Origin: Opitutales bacterium
Lineage (GTDB): Bacteria; Verrucomicrobiota; Verrucomicrobiia; Opitutales; Oceanipulchritudinaceae
Reading direction: 5' to 3'
Assembly: GCA_020831485.1 (NCBI GenBank)
Contig: JAFIGG010000001.1
Location: 144,414 to 208,413 of the forward strand
Length of the DNA: 64,000 nt
Shown: piece by piece, positions 5,716-21,427 of the stretch
Layout: each line of letters opens with the position of its first letter
Position numbering within the stretch: position 1 is the stretch's first letter
Notes under the pieces: model-generated
The model's input: only the letters and a program-made list of their open reading frames with translations
Told to the model about the DNA's origin: nothing
Databases searched by the model: none
Program-made: the position numbers and the translations under genes

Positions 5716-5800
5716 ATTCACAAAAATGCAAACACTTACATAACAATAACGCCAGGGAGGTGTCAAGCCTGGGTTGAGCAGCGAAACTAACGAGGGTGCA

Positions 5801-5924
5801 ATCAAGATCAAGAGGAAGGATTTCTGACATCTCCATTCTTGATCTTGGTTCTTTATCTTGATCTTGATCCCCCGGATAAAGAATAAGAATCGGACTGGAA
5901 TTTGAGCTGCTACCAAGTGTGATT
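5801..5924 (+). repeat. GATCAAG palindromic repeat, A-type, left copy
   Basis: Begins ATCAAGATCAAGAGGAAGG, contains the inverted pair ATCAAGATCAAG / CTTGATCTTGAT, then CCCCCGGATAAAGAATAAG and a tail ending AAGTGTGATT. The tail recurs at 6825-6874 with few differences, in the same orientation, which defines the A-type. The inverted arms could form a long hairpin. Confidence 0.85.
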
Positions 5925-5946
5925 GCGCGACGAAGTGACCTTTTCA

Positions 5947-6081
5947 GATCAAGATCAAGACCCAAGAAAAAGATCAAGAGGAAGGATTTCTGGCATCTCC
6001 ATTCTTGATCTTGGTTCTTAATCTTGATCTTGATCCCCCGGATTTTGAGGGGAAAACATGCGAATTTACGGATTTGGGAAT
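5947..6081 (+). repeat. GATCAAG palindromic repeat, B-type, left copy
   Basis: Starts GATCAAGATCAAGACCC and ends with the B-type tail (GGATTTTGAGGGGAAAACAT, then CGGATTTGGGAAT). The same 135-bp unit recurs at 6568-6702 in the same orientation with a handful of differences. The two B copies lie directly on either side of the four-helix-bundle gene, inside the two A copies. Confidence 0.88.
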
Positions 6082-6115
6082 CCATGATAACGATTCAGAG
6101 TGAATACATTTTAGA

Positions 6116-6142
6116 TTGAAAATTTCTTGCTTATTTAATAAC
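6116..6142 (+). promoter_or_regulatory. Candidate promoter of the four-helix-bundle gene
   Basis: TTGAAA at 6116-6121 and AATAAC at 6137-6142 with a 15-base spacer, in a strongly AT-rich stretch 20 bases before the start codon. The spacing is short of ideal, so this is a weak call. Confidence 0.3.
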
Positions 6143-6162
6143 GTTTTAAAAATAAGTAATTA

Positions 6163-6531
6163 ATGCAAATTATATTTGATCATGAAAAACTGCACGTTTA
6201 TCAGCTATCCCTCGATTTTGTTGCATTTTCCGAGGAATTGCTGGTCGATATTCCCTCTCGAATTGCGTCGCGCGACCAATTGGAGAGGGCTTCGACATCA
6301 ATCCCCCTTAATACAGCCGAAGGTAACGGAAAATCAACAGTGAAGGACCGGTGCCGGTATTTCTATAATGCCAGAGGTTCTGCATTGGAATGTGCAGCAT
6401 GTTTAGATGTTCTGACGCGAAAGAGGCTTATAAAGGAGGAAAAATCGATAATCGGAAAAGACATGCTTAAAGAAATTGTTTCAATGTTAGTAGGGCTAAT
6501 TCGAAGCCAAGACGGTGATTGGGAATGCTGA
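6163..6531 (+). CDS. Four-helix-bundle protein, S23/IVS-encoded family
   Basis: Small protein of 122 residues matching the family first found in intervening sequences of 23S rRNA: an opening EKLHVYQLSLDF helix, then QLERASTSIPLNTAEG (family pattern Q-L-x-R-A-x-x-S-I-x-x-N-x-A-E-G), a helix with YFYNARGSALECAA, and a final helix ending in LIRSQ. Family members form four-helix bundles and oligomerise; no enzymatic function is known. The gene is AT-richer than its neighbours and has its own AT-rich leader. It stands alone in an intergenic island and is flanked on both sides by directly repeated copies of a palindromic element; its last codons lie inside the first copy of a 176-bp tandem duplication. 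That setting suggests a mobile or recently amplified unit. Confidence 0.85.
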   Translation: MQIIFDHEKLHVYQLSLDFVAFSEELLVDIPSRIASRDQLERASTSIPLNTAEGNGKSTVKDRCRYFYNARGSALECAACLDVLTRKRLIKEEKSIIGKDMLKEIVSMLVGLIRSQDGDWEC

Positions 6532-6871
6532 TTCCGATTGAGGTCGTGACTTGGATTGACCTTCTGAGATCAAGATCAAGACCCAGGAAAAAGATCAAGA
6601 GGGAGGATTTCTGACATCTCCATTCTTGATCTTGATTCTTTATCTTGATCTTGATCCCCCGGATTTTGAGGGGAAAACATGCGAATTTACGGATTTGGGA
6701 ATGCTGATTCCGATTGAGGTCGTGACTTGGATTGACCTTCTGAGATCAAGATCAAGACCCAGGAAAAAGATCAAGAGGGAGGATTTCTGACATCTCCATT
6801 CTTGATCTTGATCTTGATCCCCCGGATAAAGAATAAGAATTGGACTGGAATTTGAGCCGCTAACAAGTGTG
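6520..6871 (+). repeat. 176-bp tandem duplication after the four-helix-bundle gene
   Basis: The string TGGGAATGCTGATTCCGATT occurs at 6520 and again at 6696, and GATCAAGATCAAGACCCAGG at 6568 and 6744, giving an exact 176-base period. The first unit includes the last codons and stop of the four-helix-bundle gene. The two units differ at their 3' ends, where one carries the B-type and the other the A-type tail. Confidence 0.88.
6568..6702 (+). repeat. GATCAAG palindromic repeat, B-type, right copy
   Basis: The arms GATCAAGATCAAG (6568-6580) and CTTGATCTTGATC (6644-6656) are exact reverse complements and enclose a second inner pair, AAGATCAAGA / TCTTGATCTT. Together they allow a hairpin of about 89 bases. 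The tail matches 6037-6081. Confidence 0.88.
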
Positions 6872-6874
6872 ATT
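6744..6874 (+). repeat. GATCAAG palindromic repeat, A-type, right copy
   Basis: The same palindromic core followed by the A-type tail (GGATAAAGAATAAGAATTGG, ending AAGTGTGATT), matching 5874-5924. It closes the A-B-gene-B-A arrangement. Confidence 0.86.
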
Positions 6875-6894
6875 ACACCCAACTAACGAACCTT

Positions 6895-8205
6895 TCATTT
6901 CCATGCCGATCCATTTTCAAAATCAAAACGGGCCAATGACTCCGGTTTCATTTCGATGCTGAAACCCGGTGCCCGGGGCAGCTGGTAACAGCCCTTGTGA
7001 ATCCGCACTGGGTCGACAAAGTGCTCGTGCAGGTGGTCGACGTATTCAAGCATGCGACCTTCGCGTTTTCCGCTGATGGCGACGAAGTCGAGCATCGAAA
7101 GGTGCTGGACGTATTCACACAGGCCGACACCCCCCGCGTGTGGACAAACGGGCACTCCGTATTTGGCTGCCAGCAGAAGGATGGCCAGGTTTTCATTCAA
7201 ACCACCAACCCGGCAGGCATCGATTTGACAAACCCCCATAGCCTCCGCCTGCAGAAACTGCTTGAACAGGATGCGGTTGGCACAGTGTTCGCCGGTGGCC
7301 ACCTTTATTGGCTGCACGGCCCTGGCGATCTCCGCATGCCCGAGGACATCGTCCGGGTGCGTGGGCTCCTCAATCCAAAGGGGATTGTAGACAGCCAGTT
7401 CCCGCATGTTGGCAATGGCTTCCGCTACTTCCCACTTCTGGTTGGCATCCATCATCAGGATTCTGTCGGCTCCAATCTCGGCGCGAATCAACTGCGCCCG
7501 CCGAAGGTCATCCTGCAAATCCGCACCCACCTTCATTTTGAAACCGGTCCAGCCGTCTGATACGGCTTCCCGGCAGAGTTGCTGAATGCGCTCATCGCTG
7601 TAACCCAGCCAGCCCACCGAGGTGGTATAAGCCGGATAGCCCGATCGCTCAAGCACCTCAATTCTTACGGCTTTTCCCGCTTCAGCGCTTTCGAGCAGCT
7701 CCAGGGCTTCGGCCCGGCTCAAGGCGTTGCCCAGGTAACTCAGGTCCACACATTTAAGGATTTGTTCCGGACGCATTTCCGCCACAAGGCGCCACAGCGG
7801 CTTGCCTTCAACCTTTGCATACAAGTCCCAGATGGCATTGATCAGAGCACCCAAGGCCATGTGCACGACCCCTTTATCCGGTCCCAGCCAACGGATCTGG
7901 CTGTCACCGTTCAAGTGCTTCCAGAAGCCACCAAAATCCTCCGTAATCGCGGCCAGTTCCATACCAACAATCTGGGCTGAAAACTGCCTCAGGGCCGCAC
8001 AACAAAGGTCGTTGCCACGTCCAATTGTGAAGGCCAATCCATGCCCCTGACAGGCCGAATCGTCTGTTTTGAGGATGAGGTAAGCGGCCGAATAATCCGG
8101 ATCCTTGTTCATCGCATCCGACCCGTGTGCGCCCAGGCTCGTGGGAAAGCGGATGTCACGCACCTTGTAGTTGCGAATAGTGATGCCCTTTCCACGCATT
8201 GCCAT
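6895..8205 (-). CDS. fucD: L-fuconate dehydratase, enolase superfamily
   Basis: Predicted to dehydrate L-fuconate to 2-keto-3-deoxy-L-fuconate in non-phosphorylated fucose breakdown. The protein is close along its whole length to the FucD/ENOSF1 family: VRDIRFPTSLGAHGSDAM near the start, YPAYTTSVGWLGYSD, the catalytic K-x-K in GFKMKVGADLQDD, the metal ligands in DANQKW, EEPTHPDD and ATGEHC, and PHAGGVGLCEYVQHL. The ATG at 8205 gives MAMRGKG; 8199 is equally possible, and the longer frame beginning at 8244 adds residues not seen in the family. The gene is divergent from a hydroxyacid dehydrogenase gene 84 bases away, suggesting shared control. Fucose-rich algal polysaccharide is a likely source of substrate (inference). 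Confidence 0.93.
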   Translation of the reverse strand: MAMRGKGITIRNYKVRDIRFPTSLGAHGSDAMNKDPDYSAAYLILKTDDSACQGHGLAFTIGRGNDLCCAALRQFSAQIVGMELAAITEDFGGFWKHLNGDSQIRWLGPDKGVVHMALGALINAIWDLYAKVEGKPLWRLVAEMRPEQILKCVDLSYLGNALSRAEALELLESAEAGKAVRIEVLERSGYPAYTTSVGWLGYSDERIQQLCREAVSDGWTGFKMKVGADLQDDLRRAQLIRAEIGADRILMMDANQKWEVAEAIANMRELAVYNPLWIEEPTHPDDVLGHAEIARAVQPIKVATGEHCANRILFKQFLQAEAMGVCQIDACRVGGLNENLAILLLAAKYGVPVCPHAGGVGLCEYVQHLSMLDFVAISGKREGRMLEYVDHLHEHFVDPVRIHKGCYQLPRAPGFSIEMKPESLARFDFENGSAWK

Positions 8206-8288
8206 CTCAACAGACACAAAAGTTGACCCACACAGCAAAGGCAAACACTATCATACACAACAAGCTCAAAACTTTAAATCTGCGTATT

Positions 8289-21336: not shown

Positions 21337-21360
21337 ATACGCACAGGCAACCCATCCCAA

Positions 21361-21427
21361 ACCAAGATCAAGAATGGTGATGCCAGAAATCCTCCCTCTT
21401 GATCTTTTTCTGGCGTCTTGATCTCAG
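21361..21427 (-). repeat. GATCAAG palindromic repeat, solo truncated copy
   Basis: Read on the minus strand this is GAGATCAAGACGCCAGAAAA, then AGATCAAGAGGGAGGATTTC and TGGCATCACCATTCTTGATC. It matches the first two-thirds of the repeats at 5947 and 6568 but lacks their tails, and it is inverted relative to them. No four-helix-bundle gene lies next to it. Confidence 0.82.

Follow-up and report, generated by a model that had tools for sequence, protein, structure and literature searches.

An S23-family gene between hairpin arms lies in a transposon-like island, likely moved by an ISKra4-family transposase, in an Opitutales bacterium

Results

The window, a 64,000-nucleotide stretch from the draft genome of an Opitutales bacterium (3.86 Mb in 142 contigs; here G000, with other G numbers denoting other genomes, C numbers contigs, and L numbers loci), contains an island at positions 5794 to 6880, limits that reach beyond the span first described. 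As the original prediction had stated, the island is AT-rich (G+C content of 0.411, compared with 0.551 for the window) and carries an S23/23S rRNA intervening sequence (IVS)-type four-helix-bundle gene between repeats. This gene (6163 to 6531, + strand) encodes 122 amino acids, and its product matched Pfam 23S_rRNA_IVP (PF05635, E = 6e-20) and TIGR02436 (E = 3.8e-19), both above the cutoff. An AlphaFold2 model built from 35 sequences was a four-helix bundle (mean pLDDT = 92.7). Foldseek comparison of this model with solved structures returned the S23 proteins 2gsc and 2rld as best matches (lowest E = 2.5e-5) and, next, Avd, the protein of diversity-generating retroelements (4dwl and 8ub7; E = 0.016 or worse, TM score of about 0.72 to 0.79). 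The S23 model has the same predicted four-helix fold as Avd, with sequence identity of about 10%. Across S23 genes, the median dN/dS ratio was 0.22 (31 pairs with usable dS). Among the 10 pairs with dS up to 0.73, the ratio was 0.06 to 0.20 in nine, four of which compare one gene with near-identical copies, and 0.51 in the tenth. The S23 protein is under purifying selection and is kept.

The island lies between two genes on the − strand, one encoding a 412-amino-acid protein that had no Pfam match at 1e-5 and the other an enolase-superfamily protein (6895 to 8244). A search of 19 genomes, G000 included, with the protein of the left neighbor gave a single foreign match (G011, 33% identity over 293 residues), and no relative searched yielded the site of the island. 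Scans of the island for promoters and terminators detected none, including no sigma-70-like promoter. Because the S23 gene is antisense to both neighbors and no such promoter was found, expression of this copy is doubtful. Folding of the island as RNA gave −352.6 kcal/mol; this value came without shuffles at that length and was not counted as evidence.

Two S23 genes in G000 scored above the profile cutoff, the island gene and one on C141, and two weaker matches fell below it. By eye, the second gene (L032, C141:20694-20999) has facing simple repeats of the TGGAATGCTGGATTGG type on either side; its top-scoring inverted match is instead a G+C-rich stretch (score of 16 against a shuffle maximum of 14).

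Four hairpin copies with GATCAAG/CTTGATC arms, all in direct orientation as originally proposed, were located at 5804 to 5877, 5970 to 6043, 6591 to 6664, and from 6767 onward. Their description as an A-B-gene-B-A arrangement is a fair shorthand; more exactly, repeat families (D1 to D3) and alignment delimit a tandem array of four units on the + strand, the second of which is split by the S23 gene. Unit 1 (5794 to 5927; D2, D3, and alignment to unit 4) comprises the left end, a hairpin copy, and a truncated right-end tail. The left part of unit 2 (5946 to 6081; D1 and D2) places a hairpin copy ahead of the gene and includes the left arm nearest to it, a stretch of CTTGATC words (6003 to 6030) that is 82% complementary to the right arm at 6567 to 6594. 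The right arm belongs to unit 3 (6567 to 6742), an S23-less twin of unit 2, and unit 4 (6743 to 6880) holds a hairpin copy and the complete right end. Unit 3 aligns with unit 2 minus the gene-bearing segment (6082 to 6526), which has an 8-bp direct repeat, TTGGGAAT, at its bounds; gene-bearing and gene-less versions therefore coexist in one array. The four units would have arisen by duplication, before or after insertion.

The two ends of the island are 11-bp terminal inverted repeats (left, GGGTGCAATCA, 5794 to 5804; right, TGATTACACCC, 6870 to 6880, both listed on the + strand), which carry a terminal C and pair at 10 of 11 positions; the end type of the island, as written for an ISKra4 counterpart, is GGGTGTAATCA. 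Outside these ends lies an exact 9-bp target-site duplication, AACTAACGA, at 5785 to 5793 and 6881 to 6889 (9/9 identical); the right copy stops 5 bases short of where the enolase-superfamily gene ends. Because the S23 gene is enclosed by paired transposon ends and a 9-base target duplication, the island was likely inserted as one unit. Local expansion of simple repeats, with ends and duplication coincidental, would explain an island built as a tandem array of repeated words. We consider this hardly credible, given that an exact 9-bp duplication adjoins matching ends and that these ends are found elsewhere too, again with duplications.

To determine how widely the hairpin is dispersed, we searched G000 with the 176-base unit, which gave 50 matches in all. 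Matches at E ≤ 4.5e-15 stood at 15 places outside the island (C87, C33, C46 [two], C82, C110, C38, C1 [three], C65, C9:165773, C30, C62, and C126), so that further genomic copies, one of the checks proposed at the outset, do exist; weaker or partial matches were seen on C66, C114, and C133. The solo repeat that had been reported elsewhere in the window is a partial copy at 21360 to 21424 (− strand; G000:C9:165773-165837, 94% identity). The end motif GGGTGYAATCA occurred 12 times in G000, compared with no occurrence of the reversed control, and 11 of the 12 matches stood at an end of the hairpin family. The twelfth (C1:7412) opens a variant left end; the same variant, with one mismatch to the motif, precedes the hairpin at C1:8771. 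At C33:66590-66744, a solo element of 155 bp is complete and flanked by an 8/9 duplication, and two short solo elements on C46 had duplications of 9/9 and 8/9. The stretch at 7412 to 8999 on C1 (L047) is a composite in which three partial hairpin copies are interleaved with other long direct repeats.

Across the stretches examined in G000, G055, and G056, we distinguished 19 end pairings. A 9-bp duplication matching at 8/9 or 9/9 with zero shift was present in 11 of these, and two more (L219 and L122) reached 9/9 once one end was slid by one base. The remaining six had no duplication (L217, L220, L221, L226, and two pairings within the C1 composite, each at 3/9). By our own arithmetic, and assuming equal base frequencies, the chance of a match of at least 8/9 is about 1e-4. 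Matching ends, an exact 9-bp duplication, and dispersed copies support the island as a mobile unit. The original prediction is supported as to mobility; it missed the ends and the duplication, its limits being too narrow.

The same data bear on the proposal that the repeats are REP/RAYT-like palindromes moved by a Y1 transposase. The island repeats are likewise dispersed intergenic palindromes, and G000 has four Y1_Tnp matches. In contrast to REP elements, however, the island ends in terminal inverted repeats flanked by a 9-bp duplication, features that point to an ISKra4-family DDE transposase, and none of the four Y1 matches lies on a contig with a listed hairpin copy. Because of the ends, the duplication, and the positions of the Y1 matches, we rejected a REP/RAYT origin as very improbable.

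Among the genomes searched, the repeat itself was largely confined to this one. The 155-bp element matched two of 55 genomes, namely, G000 and one other with a single 29-bp match, and the island matched six of 384 genomes, G000 and five in which the match lay solely within the S23 coding part.

We next consider the likely mover. An ISKra4 profile found no match in the 142-contig draft of G000 at E ≤ 1e-5; the identity of the transposase that moved the window island is therefore one that we infer. Candidate partners with matching ends were present in other genomes. In G005, which belongs to the same family as the window organism, L273 is a decayed ISKra4 element (NF033572, E = 9.1e-37, below the cutoff) whose ends, located by motif, are GGTGTAATCACGAGGTTTGTC and GACAAACTTCGTGATTACACC(C), the right end also being given as GACAAACTTCGTGATTACACCC. 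The end sequence is that of the window island, but the decay of L273 and its left end, which reads TGG, weigh against ISKra4 as the mover. In G009, a C-terminal ISKra4 fragment is followed by CGATTACACCC (L274). A scan of eight ISKra4 loci, L273 included, for 9-bp duplications found none.

A set of elements with shared ends was found in G055, a Verrucomicrobia metagenome-assembled genome reached through L141. With 220 bases of the left portion of the G055 S23 element as query, 41 matches were obtained in that genome, nine of them 99 to 100% identical over 219 to 220 bases, and a 19-base end motif with one mismatch allowed had 39 matches in G055, four in G056, and none in the control. Ends of the GGGCGCATGGCAGTTCTGTTGG type in G055 are common to S23-hairpin elements, to internally deleted elements, and to an ISKra4 element. 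Some of these elements retain S23, and others are internally deleted with apparent S23 remnants (L217 to L222; remnants were judged by reading). The ISKra4 element (L267:543-2542) is intact, 2.0 kb long, and flanked by a 9/9 duplication, and its transposase scored 208.3 bits against NF033572 (cutoff, 205; E = 2.1e-61). Within the same ends, a DUF6788 gene (L267:1996-2469) is divergent from the transposase gene and may encode an accessory protein. As candidates for an autonomous partner, G005 has a decayed element with the window end sequence and G055, for its own family of elements, an intact one, compared with none in the G000 draft at E ≤ 1e-5.

To determine how S23 genes are arranged in other bacteria, we scanned species genomes and obtained at least 591 candidate stretches, at least 541 of which encode an S23 relative. 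The best 80 by protein likeness were kept, and 73 of these were usable for counting arms, seven being left out because the flank was too short. Arms were sought in the 150 bases before and 250 bases after the gene and were taken as paired at a score of 15 or more. Inverted arms flanked the S23 gene at 68 of the 73 loci, compared with 6 of 356 other open reading frames at the same loci (best 80 of at least 541). The arms consist of degenerate words (e.g., TAATCN/NGATTA, CTTGCT, and CTCGTT), and, since loci have repeat words in common, 52% of the swaps also scored at least 15. A locus's own arms exceeded the median swap at 66 of 73 loci and all 25 swaps at 27 of 73. Of two loci from cultured strains, L110 had borderline arms and L114 had none by this score. 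The pyrimidine-rich arm was on the left at 54 loci, on the right at 4, and unclear at 15 (73 loci from the best 80 of at least 541). When further S23 matches and both G000 genes were compared with shuffles, 17 of 25 usable loci scored above all 200 shuffles, with varied repeat words (6 of 31 loci were left out as short). Inverted repeats beside S23 genes are thus found elsewhere, in line with the predicted association between gene family and repeat; the particular repeat of the window did not follow that association, occurring in G000 only, save for the 29-bp match.

Within shared sites, own arms scored higher on average than swapped ones. At one site with eight loci, the mean score was 25.8 for own arms and 19.1 for swaps among loci of that site, with own arms the row maximum in four of eight cases; at a second site, also with eight loci, the values were 26.0 and 20.0, and own arms were the row maximum in two of eight. 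Eight S23 cassettes (L078, L079, L127, L170, L172, L173, L181, and L184) apparently occupy the same operon gap, which we take to follow a miaB-like gene, and their arms differ yet stay complementary. By reading, the purine-rich right arm of L173, L181, and L184 stands just before the likely start of the next gene and may be a ribosome-binding region.

An automatic scan for ends with a 9-bp duplication gave 5 of 81 S23 loci, of which L141 and L161 were convincing; controls with other duplication lengths gave 1 to 4 and swapped pairs 0 to 2. The scan covered 300 bases upstream of the gene and missed the ends of the window island, where it listed a spurious pair, because those ends lie 369 bases upstream. 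In the wider S23 sample, loci that combine ends with a 9-bp duplication form a minority. Three cassettes, L186 (20- and 19-bp pieces, one base apart), L149 (31 bp), and L176 (40 bp), have long direct flanking duplications unlike the 9-bp ISKra4 signature, and another insertion route may exist.

Gene orientation was examined at 65 loci, 15 of the 80 having been dropped for lack of flank, and 16 of the 65 were then set aside for distant or missing neighbors. Relative to both neighbors, the remaining 49 S23 genes (from the best 80 of at least 541) scored 36 +/+, 7 +/−, 6 −/+, and 0 −/−. Open reading frames were called by a crude method, and each locus was counted once even where a site was shared; because several loci share one site, these values are not independent. 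Unlike all 49 scored relatives, the window S23 gene is antisense to both neighbors. L122, L141, and L143 (the last beyond the distance limit of the count) likewise are not codirectional with both neighbors; transposon ends are present at L122 and L141, and reading showed weak ends and a flanking repeat of 9 bp, GGGTGTCCC, at L143. Together with the window island, these loci, small in number, fit DNA transposition without orientation bias. Outside this sample, a four-helix-bundle gene of Flavobacterium columnare is listed between guanylate kinase and a nicotinate-nucleotide adenylyltransferase (PMC5524665, table), which fits residence in an operon gap.

Discussion

Our proposal, to which we give a probability of roughly 80%, is that the island is a transposon-like element, delimited by terminal inverted repeats and flanked by a 9-bp target duplication, in which an intact S23 gene stands between hairpin arms; that it lacks a transposase gene; and that an ISKra4-family (Mutator-like DDE) transposase likely moved it in trans. 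We observed the ends and the duplication, dispersed copies, an intact gene, the S23-less twin unit, and, in other genomes, ISKra4 elements with matching ends. The ISKra4 family (p-MULT 4) and its miniature derivatives resemble the island in the terminal C and the 9-bp duplication; the L273 ends have the island end sequence, and the S23 elements of G055 have the ends of an intact ISKra4 element. In the accessible text of Guerillot 2014 (PMC3942029), these families are described as having duplications of 8 or 9 bp and a conserved terminal C, with inverted repeats of 18 to 39 bp in transposase-encoding elements. The island differs in having no transposase and shorter ends (11 bp, compared with about 21 bp at L273 and 22 bp or more in G055), and its cargo, an S23 gene in inverted-repeat arms, is not named in that part of the source.

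The cargo is an IVS-like gene-in-a-stem, with the layout of a 23S rRNA intervening sequence placed between ordinary genes. rRNA intervening sequences are described (PMC4990558) as an S23-family open reading frame flanked by complementary arms that can pair into a long stem, which is cut by RNase III, with a sporadic distribution. The island likewise has an S23-family gene between complementary arms (the 82% complementary pair nearest the gene) but differs in standing between protein genes rather than inside an rRNA gene, in having transposon ends and a target duplication, and in having arms made of short repeated words. The IVS-like character originally suggested therefore applies to the architecture, because S23 genes outside rRNA in our sample mostly sit between inverted repeats, and not to the location.

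Two other accounts of the cargo were weighed. In the first, the hairpins represent a miniature transposon family of the ordinary kind, in which S23 is a chance passenger, the arms having no working link to the S23 protein. The hairpin family in G000 mostly stands without S23, each flank of the window gene is already a hairpin alone, and units with and without the gene stand side by side, as this account would have it. However, inverted arms that are unrelated in site and words accompany S23 at 68 of the 73 loci and other open reading frames at 6 of 356 (best 80 of at least 541), and most of the further S23 loci exceeded every shuffle; we regard a chance passenger as somewhat unlikely. In the second, S23, like Avd, acts as RNA partner to a reverse transcriptase, and the cassette spreads by reverse transcription, the transposon ends being secondary. 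PF05635 is said to resemble Avd (PMC10053308). The Avd fold, the codirectional bias of S23 genes, and the flanking duplications of about 20 to 40 bp at L186, L149, and L176 agree with such a route. Against it stand the DDE-type 9-bp duplications at the window island and at the G055 and G056 copies. In addition, the only RVT_1 match in G000 (E ≤ 0.001) lies on C127, a contig without a listed hairpin copy, and the contig of the island gave no reverse transcriptase match. Spread by reverse transcription appears improbable, and transposition on ISKra4-type ends remains our preferred explanation for the island.

How, then, might the module work and spread? The S23 gene with its inverted-repeat arms may be an older cassette, residing mostly between codirectional genes, that would serve as the mRNA-level counterpart of the rRNA intervening sequence. 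The arms would form an RNase III-type stem, by analogy with rRNA, and an S23 oligomer would bind that stem, a role comparable to that of Avd, which has a related fold and works with RNA in diversity-generating retroelements. Among the vehicles on which the cassette spreads would be ISKra4 ends. Extended to the family, this leads to a tentative model, to which we give rather less than an even chance: S23 genes and their arms may be widespread mobile, mRNA-borne intervening sequences located in operon gaps, with the stem cut from the message and bound by an S23 ring, that spread on borrowed ends such as those of ISKra4 and for which rRNA would be one special landing site. A partial literature search, conducted largely without subscription journals and bioRxiv, found no title on S23 between inverted simple repeats outside rRNA.

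S23 proteins are said to have no known function (PMC4990558). If S23 belongs to a gene-in-a-stem cassette that resides mostly outside rRNA, within operon gaps, and that can travel on transposon ends, its function would become directly testable, with its own arms as the substrate. Such a cassette would also account for paired intergenic simple repeats in Verrucomicrobiota, Planctomycetota, and other bacteria, and it would mean that insertion sequence ends can acquire IVS-like cargo.
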